DNA of 45,366 nt, taken from assembly GCA_902386205.1 (NCBI GenBank), contig CABMIH010000004.1:1-45366 (forward strand), in the 5' to 3' direction. Origin of the DNA: an uncultured archaeon (GTDB lineage: Archaea; Halobacteriota; Methanosarcinia; Methanosarcinales; Methanoperedenaceae). The notes beneath the pieces are model-generated. The model was not told the origin of the DNA and did not search any database. It was given only the letters and a program-made list of their open reading frames with translations. Shown piece by piece: positions 2,914-14,209 of the stretch. The position numbers were made by a program, and so were the translations under genes. Positions within the stretch are counted from its first letter, which is position 1. Every line of letters starts with the position of its first letter.

Positions 2914-3687
2914 ATGAGAATAACTTTCAGAGACCTTATTTCGGCTGGATTCGTCATGCTCCTGGTTTTAGTTCTTCTTTCAGGCCTTTCGGTTCTTCTT
3001 GGTTATGAAAAACCTGAAAATATCGAAGGCGGGGATCATCATGACCTGGCGGGATACGCTTACGGCAAATGGGGGGCTACGCTTCTTAGCATCGGGATTT
3101 TTTCGGTATTCGCGTTCAGCTTCCTCACCCCTCTTAAAAAGCAGAACTGGCGGACCCTGGGAATATATGAGGCGTTCATAATCGCCCTGTTCTCGGAAAT
3201 GTACGGTTTCCCGCTGACCATCTATGTGCTCTCCTCGCTGTTCGGGATGGAACTTTCTTTTGGACATGCACAGGGGCACATGCTTGGAGTGCTCCTTGCT
3301 AAAGCAGGTGTGATGAGCATGGAATATGCATGGGCATTTGTGATGGTGACCAGCAACGCTGTCATATTCCTCGGACTGTTCCTGATGTCAAGGGGCTGGA
3401 GCATGATACATGCTTCCCGCGGGGAACTTGTGACTGGAGGCATTTACAGGTATGTCAGGCATCCCCAGTACCTTGGACTTATAATAATAACCGTTGGGCT
3501 GCTCATCCAGTGGCCGACCATAATCACGGTTGCCATGTGGCCTATTCTTATTATAATGTACTACGGGCTTGCGAAAAGAGAAGAAGGGGAGGCAAGAGAG
3601 GCATTTGGCGAAAGATATCAGGAGTATGAACGCCGGACGCCTATGTTCTTTCCTTCCATAATTAAAAAAGGGCAGGCTGTGTCATGA
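2914..3687 (+). CDS. Isoprenylcysteine/phospholipid methyltransferase-like membrane protein (ICMT/PEMT family)
   Basis: This 257-residue polytopic protein carries the ICMT/PEMT signature near its C-terminus: GGIYRYVRHPQYLGL at 175-189 and the basic-acidic tail EGEAREAFGERYQEYERR ending in TPMFFP (224-247). Family members use S-adenosylmethionine to methylate prenylcysteine carboxylates or phosphatidylethanolamine in membranes. The gene overlaps the archaeosortase start by 4 bp. In haloarchaea ArtA cuts surface proteins and a prenyl-derived lipid is attached, and lipid head-group enzymes (PssA, PssD) are needed for this. A methyltransferase of this family beside an archaeosortase could therefore modify the anchor lipid or the lipidated C-terminus. 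The substrate is not shown by the sequence. Confidence 0.75.
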   Translation: MRITFRDLISAGFVMLLVLVLLSGLSVLLGYEKPENIEGGDHHDLAGYAYGKWGATLLSIGIFSVFAFSFLTPLKKQNWRTLGIYEAFIIALFSEMYGFPLTIYVLSSLFGMELSFGHAQGHMLGVLLAKAGVMSMEYAWAFVMVTSNAVIFLGLFLMSRGWSMIHASRGELVTGGIYRYVRHPQYLGLIIITVGLLIQWPTIITVAMWPILIIMYYGLAKREEGEAREAFGERYQEYERRTPMFFPSIIKKGQAVS

Positions 3688-4487
3688 TCGCAGCACTCTG
3701 GATAGCCCTCGGCCTGCTGTCAATAGCATCAGCGCTCCCAAAGGCCTATAATTCAAGATTCATTTTTGGGGGGCTGGGATGGATTTTCCTGTCAGTTTAC
3801 TGGTTTTTGCAGCCTGAAGCGTATATCGGGATACAGGATTATTTTAACGCGTTTTTAGTTATTATCGCTGCCATAGTATCCATTTTCATTGCGAAAATGA
3901 CCCTCCGGGCAAGAAATGGAAACGAAGGAGGCCAGAGAGACATTCTTATCTCTCTATCAAGAGCTGCATCCGTTGGAGGTCTGATTTATTTCCTCTTTGC
4001 AGAAATAGAGCCTTTGAATACAGCAATAATATCAATCGTTACAAATCAGGCAATATGGATCACTGAAACTTTCGGGTTTCCCGTTGTACAGGTAGCATGG
4101 AACCAGCTTGCGGTCAACGGTATGCTTGTTGAAATAATACTTGCCTGTACAGCCATTGAAAGCATTGCCCTATTCACAGGCATTATTTCAGCCGCAGGCG
4201 CGCCTGCTGCACAAAAATTAAGGGCATTTATGATCTCGGTGCCTGTTATTTACGTCCTGAATCTCCTGAGAGTCTTTTTCACGGCTTCAGCGTATGGATT
4301 TGGGTGGTTTGGCACGCCTGATGAGAGTTTTCATATTTCAGAGCACTTTATCACCAAGGCGGGCTCGATACTTGCTTTAATGTTGATATCATACATGGTT
4401 CTTAAATTGCTTCCAGAGGTTTCAGACATGATAGATGGTATTGTGAAGATGATGAAATTGGAATTTCGAAAGTTATCCATGAGGTAA
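3684..4487 (+). CDS. artA: Archaeosortase, ArtA-like
   Basis: The 267-residue protein has 7-8 hydrophobic segments and the exosortase/archaeosortase catalytic triad. These are Cys155 in ACTAIESIALF, Arg196 in VLNLLRV and His221 in HISEHFITKAGS. The N-terminal third (GWIFLSVYWFLQPEAY, DYFNAFL) is like ArtA, the enzyme that cleaves PGF-CTERM proteins and enables their C-terminal lipid anchoring. It is a transpeptidase-like membrane enzyme acting on S-layer and other surface proteins. The start ATG overlaps the end of the methyltransferase-like gene by 4 bp, and a ubiquitin-like gene follows after 2 bases. No PGF-CTERM target was found in this window. The exact subfamily (ArtA or another Art class) is less sure than the enzyme class. 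Confidence 0.85.
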   Translation: MIAALWIALGLLSIASALPKAYNSRFIFGGLGWIFLSVYWFLQPEAYIGIQDYFNAFLVIIAAIVSIFIAKMTLRARNGNEGGQRDILISLSRAASVGGLIYFLFAEIEPLNTAIISIVTNQAIWITETFGFPVVQVAWNQLAVNGMLVEIILACTAIESIALFTGIISAAGAPAAQKLRAFMISVPVIYVLNLLRVFFTASAYGFGWFGTPDESFHISEHFITKAGSILALMLISYMVLKLLPEVSDMIDGIVKMMKLEFRKLSMR

Positions 4488-4489
4488 AA

Positions 4490-4783
4490 TTGAAAATAAA
4501 AATAAATTATGATTTCACACAGCAGGAACTGGTTGGAAAAACGGATATTTTTGAAATTACGGATGGAGCCAGACTTGGAGAGCTATTGCGGATCATAGAC
4601 ACGAGGATAATAGATGCAGGAAAAAATAAGGGCATTGATACTACTTATAAAACTGCATTGACAGACCACCAGTTGAATGGTTGCATGGTCTTTATAAATG
4701 GCCTTGCGCCTGGAAATATGCTTGAAACTGAATTACATGATGGGGATAATATTGAATTTGTCTATGGATTCTGCGGCGGATGA
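4490..4783 (+). CDS. Ubiquitin-like protein ending in Gly-Gly (MoaD/ThiS/SAMP type)
   Basis: The likely start is TTG 4490 with GAGGT at 4480-4484; no in-frame ATG lies near. The 97-residue protein ends in FVYGFCGG. A C-terminal Gly-Gly after a 'hydrophobic-D-x-hydrophobic' strand (LHDGDNIEFVYGF) is the hallmark of MoaD/ThiS and archaeal SAMP proteins. These are adenylated at that Gly by an E1-like enzyme, then used as sulfur carriers or conjugated to lysines. The Cys just before GG is unusual. The gene is in the middle of an archaeosortase operon, 2 bases after artA and 6 before the DUF63 gene, not beside molybdopterin or thiamine genes. Modification of a partner in the cluster is possible but unproved. 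Confidence 0.75.
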   Translation: MKIKINYDFTQQELVGKTDIFEITDGARLGELLRIIDTRIIDAGKNKGIDTTYKTALTDHQLNGCMVFINGLAPGNMLETELHDGDNIEFVYGFCGG

Positions 4784-4789
4784 TTTGAT

Positions 4790-5626
4790 ATGGATTTAAT
4801 AGATTTCATAAAAAGGAATTATATAGAAGGTATCATCAACGATACAAGTTACAACCATATTGACATGATCACCTATGTCATTATTTTATTTGCAGGTGTC
4901 TATGCTGTTCTGAAACTGTTGAATAAATTGAAGATCAAGGTTGATGAAGAATTTGTCATCGCTACCATTCCATATATTTTCATGGGTTCAGTATTCAGGG
5001 TGATCGAGGATGCAAACATTCTAAGCCCGCCTGTCAAATATTTTTTTATTACGCCTCTCATTTACTTCGTGATATTTGCGATATGTTTCGGTATTCTTCT
5101 CTTAACGAAATACCTTGGGAAAATCCGGAAAATAAAAAATTATATCCGCGCATATGCGATCTCCGGCGTGGTATTGTCGTTGGCTGGCATTGTTATCCTT
5201 ATTTATAATAATTCATATGATTGGAATTTCAATATCCTGATATACAGTTTGGTTCCATCTATAGTAGTGACCGAATTCATTAGAAGAGTATCGCCTGTTA
5301 TCAGCATGACCTATCTTCGCAGCAGGATGTATTCATTTGTTATCTTTTCTTTTTTACTTGATTCGTTCACAACATATATAGGCGTGGATATGCTTGGATA
5401 TACGAACAAACACCCTTTCAGCTCCTTCCTTGCTTCTATTTTTGGAACAGGAATCGTGTTGATACCTTTATCCTTGATTTTGGTAGTATTGATAATCCTT
5501 CTGCTTGAAAAAGATTCGAAGACAGATAAAAATAATGATGAGAAGTATATGCTGGCATTAACGCTGATCGTTCTTGGTTTCTCTATGGGCGCAAGGAATT
5601 TGCTGGCTATGGCATTTGGGGTTTAG
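4790..5626 (+). CDS. DUF63-family membrane protein
   Basis: The 278-residue protein has about eight membrane helices and motifs that match archaeal DUF63 proteins: YIFMGSVFRVIEDANIL near the N-terminal third and LLDSFTTYIGVDMLGY near the C-terminal third, where polar or acidic residues sit inside helices. DUF63 has no known function to my knowledge. It is the last gene of the co-directional cluster that starts with the YHS gene. The following genes (5788 on) are convergent, so transcription probably ends in 5627-5787. Acidic residues within membrane segments could form a catalytic or transport site. Confidence in the family is fair; nothing firm can be said about its substrate. Confidence 0.7.
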   Translation: MDLIDFIKRNYIEGIINDTSYNHIDMITYVIILFAGVYAVLKLLNKLKIKVDEEFVIATIPYIFMGSVFRVIEDANILSPPVKYFFITPLIYFVIFAICFGILLLTKYLGKIRKIKNYIRAYAISGVVLSLAGIVILIYNNSYDWNFNILIYSLVPSIVVTEFIRRVSPVISMTYLRSRMYSFVIFSFLLDSFTTYIGVDMLGYTNKHPFSSFLASIFGTGIVLIPLSLILVVLIILLLEKDSKTDKNNDEKYMLALTLIVLGFSMGARNLLAMAFGV

Positions 5627-5678
5627 CTTACTCCCGATTTTTGTAGTATATATAAGCAGAACTGCCGGCAACTGGAAG

Positions 5679-5701
5679 AGGAACTGGGTTTTGCGGTTCC
5701 T
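5679..5701. terminator. Hairpin between convergent operons
   Basis: AGGAAC (5679-5684) and GTTCCT (5696-5701) form a 6-bp stem around an 11-base loop in the 161-bp gap between the convergent DUF63 and second archaeosortase genes. A T-rich stretch (5744-5781) follows on the plus strand. This may help end transcription, but archaeal termination mainly uses T-runs, so the role is tentative. Confidence 0.3.
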
Positions 5702-5787
5702 GAAAAAAGATTTCACCCCATTAAACTCCAGAAGGTCTTTTGCCACGGGATTTTCTTTTTCACTTTCGTTTTTAATTGTCTATATAA

Positions 5788-6621
5788 CTACTTCAGATAA
5801 ACATACGTTACGGGCAGGACTAAAGCTGCAAAGAGTACCCAGCCAAGGAAGGTGTGGAATATCTGCATCGCCTCAAGGCCGTAGTAGTAACCTATATACA
5901 CCAGACCCATGACCCTGAGCAGATTTGCAGAATAGGAAGCCAGGACCAGAATCAAGGTTATCTTTGCGAGGCTGTGGGAATTTCTCCCGGGTGTCGTGAT
6001 CCTGTATGCGACCACAGTACTTATTATAAGGATCATTGAATAAAAGCCAAAACACCCGAGGTCTATTTTATAATAAATATCCTCGATCCCGTATGCATGG
6101 AAGGTAGTCAGGGTATCCGGGTGTAGAGAAAGACCCAGGAGTTCCAGTATGAAAAAAGCCGGTGTTGTCACTGCATAATATCCATAATAATCGTATATAT
6201 TCGAACCCAGGCGGGATGGTATGGCGTACAGTAGTAAGAATAGCGCAAGGGCAATGGAAGAAAAATAAACGCCGAACTCGCCCAGGCTGCTTATGCCTTT
6301 ACTTTTCACGCTAAGTGATATCATGGATATCCCAAGAAACAGGAGCATGGTGTCCAGCGTCTCGATCTCAGAGCTGGTTTTCAGGTTATATAAAATATCG
6401 ACTATTATTATAGCGCTTCCGAGCAGTATGAGTTTTTTTGAAGCTTTCAACCTGGTCTGCTCTGCACCTTTAAGCTTTGAAAGGAGGAATATCGATATAA
6501 TGAAGAAAATAAGGGCTAAGTAGCCGGATCCCCCAAAGCCGCCGAAGGTAAGCTCGACATAGGATGCTATAATAAAAATAATAAAGAGAACAAGAATAAA
6601 CTCTGGCTTTTTAAAATCCAT
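5788..6621 (-). CDS. Second archaeosortase/exosortase-family protein
   Basis: The 277-residue polytopic protein contains a divergent exosortase triad: Cys190 in KIDLGCFGFYSM, Arg236 in SANLLRVMGL and His256 in AMQIFHTFLGW. The conserved order Cys, N-L-L-R, His and their spacing are as in the family, though the context of the Cys (GCFGF, no Ser or Thr next to it) differs from the ArtA copy at 3684. It therefore belongs to another archaeosortase class (ArtC/E-like or uncharacterised). The gene follows the Lrp-TRASH regulator by 2 bases, so the two are co-transcribed and the operator at 7233-7263 should control both. Two archaeosortases tail to tail is notable. Target proteins were not found in the window. 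Confidence 0.75.
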   Translation of the reverse strand: MDFKKPEFILVLFIIFIIASYVELTFGGFGGSGYLALIFFIISIFLLSKLKGAEQTRLKASKKLILLGSAIIIVDILYNLKTSSEIETLDTMLLFLGISMISLSVKSKGISSLGEFGVYFSSIALALFLLLYAIPSRLGSNIYDYYGYYAVTTPAFFILELLGLSLHPDTLTTFHAYGIEDIYYKIDLGCFGFYSMILIISTVVAYRITTPGRNSHSLAKITLILVLASYSANLLRVMGLVYIGYYYGLEAMQIFHTFLGWVLFAALVLPVTYVYLK

Positions 6622-6623
6622 AA

Positions 6624-7223
6624 TCAGGCTTTAGCACTCAATTTCTCGTATTTCTTTTCAAACTCTCCCTGGCATGTGTTGCAGCAGAAGAAATAATCTT
6701 TCTCGTCGAATTTCTTTCTGACCGCATTCCCTGCCACCTTTTTGTCACAATAAGCGCAGGTCAGGGTTATGCTTGAGGAAGCAAGAGGTATGGTTGAGTC
6801 TTTTCGAAACAGGTTTTTAACGGAAATAACGCGGATGTTGTTTATATCTGTGAGGTTTATCCTGTCCTGTATTGAAAGTATGTGCTGCAGGTCCCCTGCG
6901 ATCCTGGATACTATGGCAGCATCAGAATCAGATGTAACGTACAGTTCCTTTACCTCTTCAAGACCCAGGAGCTCCTCTGCTATCCTGTTCACCGCGAGGG
7001 GCTTTGCGTTCACAATGAGTATAGCTTCGGATACACCGAGCTTGCTGTTATCTATATCTAATGTGAATTTCCTGATAACACCGAGTTCGACCAGCCTGTC
7101 CACACGGCTCTTGACCGTGGGAACGCTTGTCAGGCAGTTCCTGGCTATCTCCTGGAACGACTTCCTGCTGTCACTGTGGAGATGTGTCAATATTTTGACA
7201 TCTAGATTGTCCAGTTCTACCAT
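6624..7223 (-). CDS. Lrp/AsnC-type regulator with C-terminal TRASH metal-sensing domain
   Basis: The 199-residue protein has an Lrp-type winged helix at residues 1-60 (LDVKILTHLHSDSRKSFQEI, then PTVKSRVDRLVELGVI). An Lrp ligand/dimerisation region follows to about 138, then a TRASH domain at 154-195 with Cys156/Cys159, Cys180 and Cys184 (CAYCDKKV, FFCCNTC). TRASH domains bind metals; in haloarchaea a similar Lrp-TRASH protein responds to copper and controls a copper ATPase. The 5' region has TTTAC-N7-GTAAA between TATA and ATG, so it may repress itself. It heads a two-gene operon with an archaeosortase. YHS and TRASH are related folds, so the cluster has at least three proteins with this type of metal site. 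Confidence 0.85.
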   Translation of the reverse strand: MVELDNLDVKILTHLHSDSRKSFQEIARNCLTSVPTVKSRVDRLVELGVIRKFTLDIDNSKLGVSEAILIVNAKPLAVNRIAEELLGLEEVKELYVTSDSDAAIVSRIAGDLQHILSIQDRINLTDINNIRVISVKNLFRKDSTIPLASSSITLTCAYCDKKVAGNAVRKKFDEKDYFFCCNTCQGEFEKKYEKLSAKA

Positions 7224-7232
7224 ATTAATAAC

Positions 7233-7263
7233 TTTACATGCGATGTAAACTTAAGTACTTTAC
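7233..7263. promoter_or_regulatory. Candidate operator of the Lrp-TRASH/archaeosortase operon
   Basis: TTTAC 7233-7237 and GTAAA 7245-7249 flank a 7-bp spacer and are extended to 7-bp arms by the neighbouring AT (TTTACAT/ATGTAAA). A third half site, TTTAC at 7259-7263, lies after ACTTAAGTACTTT (7249-7261). On the minus strand a TATA-like ATTTAATATAAAAAT lies just upstream (about 7268-7282), so the sites sit between TATA and the ATG at 7223. The 13-bp ACTTAAGTACTTT is repeated exactly at 8215-8227. Confidence 0.7.
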
Positions 7264-7344
7264 GGTTATTTTTATATTAAATGTTTTTAAAGCACAAACC
7301 ATTTAAGGAGTGAATCCTGTTTGTTTATAAATGAAGTAATAATT

Positions 7345-8157
7345 ATGTATGTCATAAAAGCTAACGGTGAAAAAGAGGAGTTCAATCCCGAAAAAATCCG
7401 AAGTTCTCTTACGAGAGCGAATGTGGACAGGACAATTTCGGATGAGATCATAAAACAGGTAGAAAAAGAAGCATTCGATGGTATAACCACTGCTGCGATT
7501 TTCAGGAGGGTCATGGAGCTCTTGAAAAATCGTTCGCCTGCAAGAGCATCGTGTTACGATCTCAAAGATGCTATCAAGCGTCTTGGGCCTGCGGGATTTC
7601 CTTTTGAGACCTTTATCGCTGAGATACTAAAAGAAAATGGGTTTAAAACTATGCTGCGCACAAGACTCAGGGGTAAATGTGCTGAACATGAAATCGATGT
7701 AATAGCTACCGATAACAACGGCAAACGCTTCCTCATCGAGTGCAAGTTCCATAATTATCCGGGCACCTATATCGATTTGAAAGAAGCGCTCTATACATAT
7801 GCAAGGCTTCTGGATTTGAATAACGGGAATAATTCTTTTGATGGTGTATGGCTTTCATGCAATACGAAAGCATCGATAGAGGCACAGAAATATGCTGAAT
7901 GCATGAATATCAAGCTGCTTTGCTGGAGACATCCCAAAGATAGAAGCCTTGAGAAAATGATAGCTGAAAAAAATCTGTACCCCATAACTATTTTACAGTC
8001 GGCCGGACCTGATATCATCAAACGATTTTCAAAGGCTGGATACATACTGGTAAAAGACCTGCTTCAAGAGGATTTCAGGAATATAGGAAGGAAAACCGGA
8101 TTAAAAGACCGCAAAATCAGGGAACTGGTGGATGAAGCAAGGGAGATTTGCTGTTAA
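7345..8157 (+). CDS. ATP-cone protein fused to a PD-(D/E)xK nuclease domain
   Basis: From ATG 7345 the product has 270 residues. Residues 1-85 are an ATP-cone (MYVIKANGEKEEFNPEKIRSSL), the nucleotide-binding regulatory domain known from ribonucleotide reductases and NrdR. Residues 100-200 are a restriction-endonuclease-like domain with Asp118, Glu132 and Lys134 in EIDVIATDNNGKRFLIECK. The C-terminal 50 residues (IIKRFSKAGYILVKDLL, GLKDRKIRELVDEA) look like a helix-hairpin-helix DNA-binding region. The architecture suggests a DNA-cutting enzyme whose activity or assembly answers to ATP/dATP. Such fusions exist as uncharacterised archaeal and bacterial proteins. A TTG at 7321 could extend it by 8 residues, but the ATP-cone begins at the ATG. 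Confidence 0.75.
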   Translation: MYVIKANGEKEEFNPEKIRSSLTRANVDRTISDEIIKQVEKEAFDGITTAAIFRRVMELLKNRSPARASCYDLKDAIKRLGPAGFPFETFIAEILKENGFKTMLRTRLRGKCAEHEIDVIATDNNGKRFLIECKFHNYPGTYIDLKEALYTYARLLDLNNGNNSFDGVWLSCNTKASIEAQKYAECMNIKLLCWRHPKDRSLEKMIAEKNLYPITILQSAGPDIIKRFSKAGYILVKDLLQEDFRNIGRKTGLKDRKIRELVDEAREICC

Positions 8158-8214
8158 GTCCCGACACATTTTCATGCTCATTGCAGTCCCATCTTATGTT
8201 TTAGCTTTAGGCTC

Positions 8215-8263
8215 ACTTAAGTACTTTTCCGCAAGCTTTAATATCTTTTACGTTAATTGTAAA
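8215..8263 (+). promoter_or_regulatory. Candidate operator/promoter of the blaI-like operon
   Basis: TTTAC 8247-8251, spacer 8252-8258 and GTAAA 8259-8263 end 3 bases before the ATG at 8267. A TATA-like CTTTAATAT lies at 8236-8244, so the transcript would be nearly leaderless and the palindrome would block its start. ACTTAAGTACTTT 8215-8227 is identical to 7249-7261. Confidence 0.65.
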
Positions 8264-8266
8264 CAC

Positions 8267-8626
8267 ATGGTTAAGCTTGACCAGATCAATATTTCAAATG
8301 AAGGCCTCACGAAGTTCTTCAGCCCCATCGAATCTACGATAATGAAGACTTTATGGAGCGAAGGCGAAATGATGACCTCGGAGCTGACTGAAAAGACAAA
8401 GATACCCCTTACAAGCGTGGCAGGTACTCTTGACAGGCTTGTAAAAGCAGGATATGCAATGCGGCGTGTGGAAACTGTAAATGGAAGGGTAAGATATGTG
8501 TATGCACCGGTCTCTTCCGAGGAAGAGGCGGCTTCTGAGATAACAACGAGGGTGCTTGACAGCCTTGTGGACGCATTCGGCCCTCTTGCGCTTGAAAATT
8601 TCTCAAAATACAGTGGTAAGAAATGA
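8267..8626 (+). CDS. BlaI/MecI/CopY-family transcriptional repressor
   Basis: From ATG 8267 the product has 119 residues, the usual size for this family; a longer frame back to 8132 would run through the previous gene and the operator. The winged helix is clear: SPIESTIMKTLWSEGEMM, TSELTEKTKIPLTSVAGTLDRL and GYAMRRVETVNGRVRYVYAP match BlaI/PenI. Such repressors form dimers on palindromes and are removed by partner-driven proteolysis (BlaR1) or metal (CopY). The next gene, a membrane M48 peptidase, overlaps it by 4 bp, recalling blaI-blaR1. There is no penicillin-sensing domain, so the signal here is unknown. A palindrome at the start site suggests autorepression. Confidence 0.85.
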   Translation: MVKLDQINISNEGLTKFFSPIESTIMKTLWSEGEMMTSELTEKTKIPLTSVAGTLDRLVKAGYAMRRVETVNGRVRYVYAPVSSEEEAASEITTRVLDSLVDAFGPLALENFSKYSGKK

Positions 8627-9303
8627 AACTCCTGGGTGAAATAAACTGTTTTGGCCAGTGTTTGAGACTGTCTGAGTTTGCCCCTTTTATAGCCCTTCTA
8701 ATAGTTGTTTCAATAGCTATGCTGGCAGCAAGCCTGATGCTGCGGAATCCGAAACAAAGGATTATGACATTCGTTTCAGCCCAGATTTGTGTTCTCCTGG
8801 CCATAGCTGCGACATTTTACGTGATGAATTGCAGCGAGATGCTCTCGATTTACCTGTACTTTGGTTATGTGGCTGTATCAACAATCATTATATTCGGCGT
8901 GCTCAGGCATTACGACAGGGTAATGATCAGGCGCCTTGGGGCAAGGCCCATAGCGCCCCTTATGAAATGGACGCAGGATTTTGTTGACAGGCTTACATCA
9001 GCCACAATATATTATTATGATTCTGCCGTGCCCCGTGCTTTTGCATCAGGAAGGTCGATCTTCGTATCGCTCGGGCTTCTTGAGGCCTTAAATGAGGATG
9101 AACTGAAGGCAGTCCTGGCGCATGAGGCATGGCACATCCGCAATAACTCAAGGACGCCATATTTAAAGCAGCTTGCGTTGATGACTTTTTCGCCACCCAA
9201 GGAATCCGAGCTTGAAAAACTGGCAGACGTTTTTGCGGCTGAGATAGCCGGCAGTGAAGCTCTTTATTCTGCGCGTGATAAATTGGATAAAGTATTTACC
9301 TGA
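8623..9303 (+). CDS. Membrane-bound M48-family metallopeptidase (BlaR1-like partner of BlaI)
   Basis: The 226-residue protein has three N-terminal hydrophobic segments (about 20-40, 48-68, 75-95) and a zinc peptidase motif HEAWH at 167-171, with the downstream ESELEKLADVFAAE supplying the third ligand. AFASGRSIFVSLGLLEALNEDELKAVLAHE is the M48 consensus. ATGA overlap with the repressor gene indicates translational coupling, and the pair resembles the BlaI-BlaR1 or MecI-MecR1 signal pair. In that model the peptidase, once activated, cuts or triggers cutting of the repressor. The protein is shorter than BlaR1 and lacks any sensor domain outside the membrane, so the trigger may be membrane stress or an interacting protein. 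Confidence 0.8.
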   Translation: MKLLGEINCFGQCLRLSEFAPFIALLIVVSIAMLAASLMLRNPKQRIMTFVSAQICVLLAIAATFYVMNCSEMLSIYLYFGYVAVSTIIIFGVLRHYDRVMIRRLGARPIAPLMKWTQDFVDRLTSATIYYYDSAVPRAFASGRSIFVSLGLLEALNEDELKAVLAHEAWHIRNNSRTPYLKQLALMTFSPPKESELEKLADVFAAEIAGSEALYSARDKLDKVFT

Positions 9304-9312
9304 AAAGGTAAA
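9295..9312. repeat. Inverted repeat at end of M48 gene
   Basis: TTTACC 9295-9300 and GGTAAA 9307-9312 pair perfectly across TGAAAA. The arms resemble the TTTAC/GTAAA operators, but the spacer between the five-base cores is 8 instead of 7 and the site spans a stop codon. It could be a weak related operator for htpX or a simple hairpin. Confidence 0.3.
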
Positions 9313-9364
9313 CAATAGTAAGATTTGACTGTTATAAGATAATAATCAAGAGGTAAGAAAACAA

Positions 9365-10225
9365 ATGAAAAGCATGTTCAAAACGACGGTGCTGTTAGCT
9401 GCACTGACCGGACTGTTAGTGATCATAGGCAGTTTCTGGGGACCCGGAGGCATGACAATAGCATTGATCTTTGCGCTAATCATGAATTTCGGGTCATACT
9501 GGTTCAGTGATAAGATAGTGCTTGCAATGTACCATGCGAGGGAGGTCACTGAATCCGAATTCCCTAATCTCTACAGGGTTGTGCGCGGCCTCACTTATAA
9601 GGCGAGCCTGCCCATGCCCAAAGTCTATATTGTGGATTCACCGATGGCGAACGCTTTTGCAACAGGCAGGAATCCCGAGCATGCAGCAGTTGCAGTGACC
9701 ACAGGAATAATGCAGATCCTGACGCCTGAGGAACTTGAAGGCGTGCTGGCCCATGAATTGGCCCATGTTTCGAACCGCGATACTTTGATAAGCGCGGTAG
9801 CAGCAACTATTGCCGGGGTCATAACCATGGTAGCTTCGATGGCGCAGTGGGCTGCCATATTCGGGGGTTTCGGCGGGCGTGATGATAATGATAGGGGCGG
9901 GGGCATAATAGGTTTCCTTGCTCTTGTAATAATTGCGCCGATTGCGGCAACGCTTATCCAGCTTGCGATTTCAAGATCCCGTGAGTTCGTAGCTGATGAG
10001 AGCGGCGCAAAAATGTGCGGAAAACCCTGGGCTCTTGCCAATGCTCTTGGGAAATTGCATCGTTCAGCCGACATATCAGCTGCGAATGGCCGCCCGGCGG
10101 ATATTAACCCTTCGACTGCTCACATGATGATAGTCAACCCGCTTCGCGGGAGCGCGTTAATGTCTCTCTTCTCGACCCATCCCCCAACAGAAGAGAGAAT
10201 TGCAAGACTTAACAGGATGATTTAA
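9365..10225 (+). CDS. htpX: HtpX, membrane M48 zinc protease
   Basis: The 286-residue protein matches HtpX throughout. It has two N-terminal helices, [21 protein letters not shown], the HELAH zinc motif at 130-134, two more hydrophobic segments, [11 protein letters not shown] with the third ligand Glu207, and the C-terminal [10 protein letters not shown]. HtpX degrades misfolded membrane proteins during envelope stress. A GAGGT sequence lies about 11 bases before the ATG and a TATA-like TTATAAG at 9331, so it probably has its own promoter although it follows the BlaI/M48 pair by only 61 bp. Two M48 peptidases in a row with a BlaI repressor fit a membrane-protein quality control response. Confidence 0.95.
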
Positions 10226-13629: not shown

Positions 13630-13687
13630 GGTTCTTTGAGATGCAATGGAAATATATAAGCATGCGCACAAACTCAATGAAACTGTT

Positions 13688-14209
13688 ATGGTGAGAATGA
13701 AGGTATCAATTTTTCCTTTATTAGTATTACTATTATTTTCAATAATTATAGGCACAGCCGCCGAAGAAACGTTGATGAATGGGACTAATATTTATATTGC
13801 CACAGGCGAGCCCACGGAACTTGGGCAGGGATATGTACTGATCGCCAAAAGCGTGAGCAACGACGGTTCTGTCTGGCTCCAGTTGATAGATAACAATAAG
13901 ATACTAAAAAGTGAAATTGTACGGGATTACGGGTATTTCATGTACAATAAATCCAACAGGACAATCCTTTCAATTAAACTTGAAAAAATATATTCCGGTT
14001 CTATTGAAAATCTTGTAGCCCTCTCTGTTTACCAGTTTTCTGACCCTGATAAGCTGGTGCCTGATCAAACGAAAATAAAAGAGAATCCGAAGGATCTGGG
14101 AAATGACAGTTCTCTTCGAAGAGAGGTGTCTCAGGGTGAGACTGTAATCTGGGCACTTGGTATTGCTCTTATTCTAATTCTTTTTTATACCCTGCGTAAA
14201 TTATGGTGA
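13688..14209 (+). CDS. S-layer-domain-like surface protein with C-terminal membrane anchor
   Basis: Starting at ATG 13688 (13697 is an alternative), the 173-residue product has a signal peptide (VSIFPLLVLLLFSIIIGTAAEE), a beta-rich domain and a C-terminal hydrophobic segment (VIWALGIALILILFYTLRKLW). The core LGQGYVLIAKSVSNDGSVWL followed by QLIDNNKILKSEIVRDYGYFMY matches the S-layer family duplication domain of Methanosarcinales surface proteins, in a single truncated copy. The C-terminal helix plus basic end could be a simple anchor; no PGF or PEF sorting motif precedes it. N-glycosylation sequons (NGT, NKS, NRT, NDS) support an extracellular location. It is transcribed towards pelota with 3 bp between. 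Confidence 0.7.
   Translation: MVRMKVSIFPLLVLLLFSIIIGTAAEETLMNGTNIYIATGEPTELGQGYVLIAKSVSNDGSVWLQLIDNNKILKSEIVRDYGYFMYNKSNRTILSIKLEKIYSGSIENLVALSVYQFSDPDKLVPDQTKIKENPKDLGNDSSLRREVSQGETVIWALGIALILILFYTLRKLW

Follow-up and report, generated by a model that had tools for sequence, protein, structure and literature searches.

Why should two different archaeosortases be encoded almost side by side, and which proteins does each of them process? The question is raised by a 45,366-nucleotide stretch of DNA (the window hereafter; contig CABMIH010000004.1 of assembly GCA_902386205.1, here C4) from the 2.79 Mb genome of a Candidatus Methanoperedens archaeon. In Methanoperedens, the electrons from methane oxidation pass to the outside over numerous cytochromes bound to the membrane and the S-layer, and we know of no account of how these are anchored in the archaeal envelope. 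The original prediction, made from the letters of the window, described two archaeosortases lying tail to tail, the second co-transcribed with a metal-sensing regulator. Both reading frames lie where it had placed them, at 3684-4487 (+) and 5788-6621 (-), and both products are placed in the exosortase/archaeosortase superfamily by TIGR04178 (55.5 and 56.3 bits, respectively; cut-off 23). The first passes the ArtA family TIGR04125 (232 bits, cut-off 75) and the second the ArtC family TIGR03762 (136 bits, cut-off 100). The genes are convergent as described but not adjacent, since a ThiS/MoaD-like ubiquitin-fold protein (4490-4783, +; PF02597) and a DUF63 membrane protein (4790-5626, +; PF01889, 233 bits) are encoded between them. 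Both enzymes are of known kinds, and they are two unusual variants. On balance, we favour the explanation that the ArtC-like enzyme is a sortase for PEF-CTERM proteins, and that the first enzyme, referred to here as ArtA2, is a redox-protein anchoring enzyme within a maturation locus.

A genome-wide search added a third archaeosortase-family gene to the two in the window, at C75:30798-31586, bringing the total to three. It is followed by genes for phosphatidylserine decarboxylase (PssD) and a CDP-alcohol phosphatidyltransferase (PssA), and a grouping of artA, pssA and pssD has been reported in Methanosarcina (PMC7157517). The C75 enzyme is ArtA1, the housekeeping copy (259 bits to TIGR04125 versus 232 for the window enzyme), and the window copy is the paralogue ArtA2. 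We found ArtA in all 34 genomes searched from the family, most of which carry a second copy, and a single ArtA in each of 27 matching genomes from other Methanosarcinales families, one assembly showing it in two pieces. Phylogenetic analysis split a clade of 21 ArtA2 sequences (Shimodaira-Hasegawa-like approximate likelihood ratio test, SH-aLRT, 100) from 30 ArtA1 sequences (SH-aLRT 97). ArtA2 is an old paralogue of ArtA, present alongside the housekeeping set of ArtA1, PssD and PssA.

The active site of ArtA2 is altered, a feature that had been missed. Cys155 and Arg196 were correctly named as catalytic and are present in 22 of 22 ArtA2 sequences, but the proposed third residue, His221, is one position away from the column that the family uses. 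That column (position 220) holds histidine in 31 of 31 ArtA1 and 25 of 25 other Methanosarcinales ArtA sequences, and glutamate in all 22 ArtA2 sequences. The third residue lies within the motif SF(x)(I/V)(A/S)H in Methanosarcinales ArtA; the window enzyme reads SFHISEHFITK, and the alignment is free of gaps between SF and the following lysine. In the adjacent column, that of His221, canonical enzymes show His, Asn, Gln or Thr, with histidine in 14 of 25. For Haloferax ArtA, the residues of shown importance are Cys173, Arg214 and Arg253 (PMC9263693). ArtA2 has neither of these third residues (histidine in Methanosarcinales, Arg253 in Haloferax), and because of Glu220 we name it an ArtA-like paralogue rather than ArtA. 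It has the same length as ArtA, and the ratio of nonsynonymous to synonymous substitution rates (dN/dS) of ~0.17 among near relatives argues against decay. Sequence searches returned no solved relatives of ArtA2 or of the ArtC-like enzyme. Residues 217-221 of ArtA2 (HISEH) also fit HxxEH, a pattern known from inverse zinc sites (His217 in 21 of 22 sequences, Glu220 and His221 in all 22); the match could be due to chance, and it is conserved in 21 of 22.

The gene neighbourhood of ArtA2, compared across 22 loci of Methanoperedens and its sister genus, is conserved. DUF63 is encoded no more than two genes downstream in 20 loci, and an ICMT-like methyltransferase is present in 16, immediately upstream in 14. 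Orthologues of this methyltransferase occur in 22 of the 25 genomes with ArtA2 and in none of the nine without (p = 4e-6). Families of a predicted lipoprotein (LipoP), a small CCLHH-containing membrane protein (TMcchh) and the ThiS-like protein are each found in 13 loci, and a secreted protein (SecP) in 17. Farther away are genes for CcmH, a cupredoxin, a DsbD/CcdA-like protein, a CYCXC protein, CcmC, a NapH/NosR-like protein and a beta-propeller protein. Within the window, the ArtA2 operon opens with LipoP (726-1280, +) and continues with TMcchh (1285-1770, +), SecP (1781-2377, +), a second SecP paralogue (2385-2909, +) and the ICMT/PEMT-like membrane methyltransferase (2914-3687, +; PF04191, PF04140), which overlaps ArtA2 by 4 bp. 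The window starts 725 bases upstream of LipoP, so that the cytochrome c maturation (Ccm) part of this genome's locus is out of view. ArtA2 thus resembles the ArtA of H. volcanii (HVO_0915) and M. acetivorans in its family score, Cys155/Arg196, length and the presence of PGF-CTERM clients in the genome. It differs in the glutamate at the histidine column, in its linkage to DUF63, ICMT and Ccm genes rather than PssA/PssD, and in coexisting with ArtA1. As in the System I cytochrome c maturation loci with CcmH described from ANME-2d (PMC9012536), CcmE, CcmF, CcmH and CcmC accompany ArtA2 and some of the divergent ArtC genes considered next; among the papers searched, we found no mention of archaeosortases as part of Ccm loci.

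The second enzyme falls into an ArtC-like clade that is restricted to the genus and that the trees place outside canonical ArtC. Across 238 genomes of the class, canonical sequences score 212-464 bits to TIGR03762, this divergent group 135-154 bits, and partial or distant matches 64-68 bits. The divergent clade (support 100/99) comprises nine copies from only five Methanoperedens genomes, with up to three per genome, all from named Methanoperedens records, including M. nitroreducens ANME-2d. The window protein is 93% identical to one from Methanoperedens sp. MnB_21, and divergent and canonical ArtC are ~30% identical. The clade is placed outside a canonical clade (support 95/99; 99 in the other tree), and joining it to the canonical ArtC of Methanoperedens is not rejected (approximately unbiased test, p = 0.104). 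We use the name ArtC-like because DLGCFGFYS, present in nine of nine divergent sequences, replaces GGPCSG[LI]YS, which is found in 40 of 40 canonical ones and is a feature of all canonical sequences compared rather than a published ArtC criterion. The triad Cys190, Arg236 and His256 had been assigned correctly and is invariant across 38 homologues, the close relatives having kept the catalytic residues. An AlphaFold2 model of the protein is of good quality (predicted local distance difference test 84, predicted template modelling score 0.82), and a fold search with it returned no solved relative. dN/dS values of 0.07-0.14 indicate purifying selection. The enzyme is thus like ArtC of the Methanosarcinales PEF-CTERM system in scoring over the cut-off, in keeping the triad and in having PEF-CTERM proteins in its genome. 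Unlike canonical ArtC, it belongs to a clade of its own limited to five Methanoperedens genomes, carries DLGCFGFYS, and has 7 to 12 mostly dispersed clients per genome rather than 0 to 3.

Clients of these enzymes were located through family searches, and the genome-wide count suggested with the original prediction found both signals. There are 12 PGF-CTERM matches, two of which are over the cut-off, and tripartite tails were recognized by eye among the matches; they include cytochromes with 11, 7, 5 and 1 haem motifs, and all may be clients of ArtA1. PEF-CTERM gave seven matches with E < 0.001 (six over the cut-off and one just below), as well as two weaker forms with IPEFQWIGLPV. The expectation that two enzymes imply two signals is therefore borne out for the signals, although two of the three enzymes are of ArtA type and would share PGF. 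The window itself, as had been stated, contains no client with such a signal: neither PEF-CTERM tails nor tripartite tails bearing PGF or PEF were found in it. An S-layer-domain protein at 13646-14209 has a C-terminal helix and a short basic end without either motif.

Three observations link the PEF signal to the divergent enzymes. PEF signals and ArtC-type enzymes co-occur family-wide (11 of 12 versus 3 of 22 genomes, p = 1.3e-5), and genomes with divergent ArtC have 7-12 PEF proteins compared with 0-3 in those with canonical ArtC only (p = 0.004). In three genomes (G000, G003 and G007) the divergent type alone exceeds the ArtC cut-off, and these encode 7, 11 and 7 PEF proteins, respectively. 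Finally, in MnB_21 (G007:C57, L066) only 22 bp separate a PEF client (7317-8222, +) from the divergent ArtC gene that follows it (8245-9114, +). The co-occurrence, the PEF counts in the absence of canonical ArtC and this gene pair make PEF the likely signal of divergent ArtC, and the assignment of the window enzyme to PEF-CTERM is reasonably secure. ArtA in Haloferax cuts PGF-CTERM proteins and transfers them to a membrane lipid. Similarly, the ArtC-like enzyme, which scores within the ArtC family, has an intact triad, co-occurs with PEF signals and has a relative directly behind a PEF client, most likely cleaves PEF-CTERM tails on the external side of the membrane by means of Cys190, Arg236 and His256, and would then hand the cut protein to a membrane lipid; we infer both cleavage and lipidation.

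For ArtA2, the clade, the substitution and the locus are directly observed, and its role is most likely that suggested by the neighbourhood. ArtA2 belongs to a conserved maturation locus for cytochrome c and copper proteins (CcmF, CcmH, CcmC, cupredoxin, DsbD/CcdA-like, CYCXC and NosR/NapH-like proteins and a TRASH-domain sensor). Its most likely task is the processing or anchoring of a single exported redox protein, or a small number of them, made by this locus, and it would use Cys155 and Arg196 with Glu220, or the adjacent His221, in place of the usual histidine. A more specific proposal, which we consider unlikely, is that ArtA2 is functionally distinct, with a Cys-Arg-Glu or shifted-His site, and attaches exported redox proteins to lipid during their maturation, with DUF63 and the ICMT-like protein as partners in a route apart from ArtA1-PssA-PssD.

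Several points weigh against the explanation favoured here for the two enzymes. We did not find a dedicated client of ArtA2. Genomes lacking ArtA2 (G009, G028 and G029) retain PGF-CTERM cytochromes, so that ArtA2 is not needed for those. Glutamate at the third position could lower the activity of ArtA2, and the locus is variable, with some copies (for example, G014:C20 and G003:C45) lacking most of the neighbours. On the PEF side, CxxCH occurs in only 2 of 67 PEF clients, and the clients thus do not explain the linkage of divergent ArtC to Ccm genes.

Two candidate specificities for ArtA2 were tried and rejected. The first assigned cytochromes with PGF[G/T/A] tails to ArtA2 and proteins with PGFE to ArtA1; the tail bias is real, but it is also found in genomes without ArtA2 and so fails to tell the two enzymes apart, and the homologous clients compared are not independent. 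In ten Methanoperedens genomes, an acidic residue follows PGF in 1 of 22 haem proteins versus 28 of 52 others, with or without ArtA2. The second candidate was a beta-propeller protein (family F9) with a C-terminal helix and basic end, which is found solely alongside ArtA2; neither the window genome nor several further genomes with ArtA2 contain it.

Alternatively, ArtA2 may merely be a second general PGF-CTERM sortase that raises gene dosage, its position in the cytochrome/copper locus reflecting co-expression rather than dedicated clients. The shared signature family of ArtA2 and ArtA1, the many PGF clients in the genome and the finding of no other class of C-terminal signal in a search of the ArtA2 locus are all consistent with this. 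We consider it somewhat unlikely, as the histidine-to-glutamate change extends across the whole clade, the divergence from ArtA1 is old, and ArtA2 constantly keeps the company of DUF63 and ICMT rather than PssA/PssD.

The original prediction also had the second sorting system under specific control by the regulator, and thereby by metal. The regulator gene (6624-7223, -) encodes an Lrp-type protein with a C-terminal TRASH metal-sensing domain (PF24273, PF08394 and PF13404, all over cut-off) and stops 2 nt short of the ArtC-like start codon, which fits co-transcription; the same arrangement is seen in MnB_21 (L067), and in G024:C84 (L073) a TRASH gene is close to a canonical ArtC. However, the window and MnB_21 supply the only two of the nine divergent loci in which TRASH directly precedes ArtC; it is missing from the other seven and from the remaining canonical ArtC loci that were read, and it accompanies ArtA2 in 11 of 22 loci. 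With its Lrp/AsnC-type helix-turn-helix and C-terminal TRASH domain, the protein is CopR-like. TRASH-Lrp proteins of the CopR type are copper sensors (PMC7830388), in keeping with a copper/haem locus. Specific control of the second system is rather unlikely given these frequencies, and the predicted sensor, which tracks ArtA2, makes more sense as a component of the copper/cytochrome locus than as a regulator of ArtC. A promoter and terminator scan of positions 5500-7400 stayed near chance level. In G003:C35 and G012:C155 (L065 and L068) divergent ArtC immediately precedes a CcmE-CcmF-CcmH row encoded on its own strand. ArtC genes have thus become neighbours of the ArtA2/Ccm locus more than once, and this association is more interesting than the pairing of ArtC with TRASH. 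Beside the regulator, genes for a BlaI-like repressor, an M48/M56-like peptidase and an HtpX-like peptidase are consecutive at 8132-10225, and relatives of these lie near ArtA2 in two other genomes (L183 and L188).

We regard as quite unlikely a further possibility, that ArtA2 has lost its sortase role and that His217, Glu220 and His221 form a site for metal or haem handling, or that the protein is a chaperone for the maturation locus. Conservation of HxxEH within a copper/haem maturation locus would suit such a function, and we also count in its favour that in Haloferax some processing reportedly remains with alanine at the third residue (Abdul Halim 2018). Against it, all ArtA2 sequences keep Cys155 and Arg196, the residues most needed for activity, and are under purifying selection, and His221 is not specific to ArtA2, given its occurrence in canonical ArtA. 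Lastly, that divergent ArtC reads a signal other than PEF would suit the altered active-site surroundings in all nine copies and the position outside canonical ArtC, and is very unlikely in view of the 7 to 11 PEF proteins in three genomes without canonical ArtC and the copy immediately behind a PEF gene.

Several related genes were seen in the family. One further archaeosortase group, with CSG[AS]AS at the cysteine, occurs in seven genomes (L044 259-1158, L048 1360-2226, L049 1453-2295, L045, L046, L047 and L057); the three scanned (L044, L048 and L049) match only the general signature, falling below every specific NCBIfam cut-off, and may represent an unnamed class. L195 (G023:C34:1-17500), and also L043 and L058, carry two archaeosortase-like genes in tandem that do not reach the ArtC cut-off; on the contig of the L195 pair there are three consecutive PEF tails of identical sequence, along with further PEF pieces. 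A bacterial-type, XrtA-like exosortase (193 bits, cut-off 208), accompanied by a DUF3485 (EpsI-like) protein, is found in M. nitroreducens and BE2012_43_12 (L061 2027-3600 and L062 2406-3979), ~7 kb from divergent ArtC. Canonical ArtC is convergent in places with large DUF1616 proteins, one of them bearing an S-layer domain (L071 4422-7859 and L074 5142-8066), and a DUF1616 piece lies beside some divergent ArtC genes (L061 11091-11459).

For ANME-2d, the two archaeosortase classes and the two signals had been tabulated earlier (PMC5244752), and PGF-CTERM cytochromes and CcmH had been noted (PMC9012536). The literature searched, which included few subscription papers, contained no report of ArtA2, its glutamate substitution, its setting in a maturation locus or the divergent ArtC clade. 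If the proposed role is correct, a dedicated archaeosortase with an altered active site in a cytochrome/copper locus would tie the tethering of proteins to the insertion of their cofactors, and DUF63 and the ICMT-like methyltransferase would gain a role that can be tested. The clade of divergent ArtC enzymes, with phenylalanine beside the catalytic cysteine and multiple copies per genome, is a natural experiment in sortase specificity.

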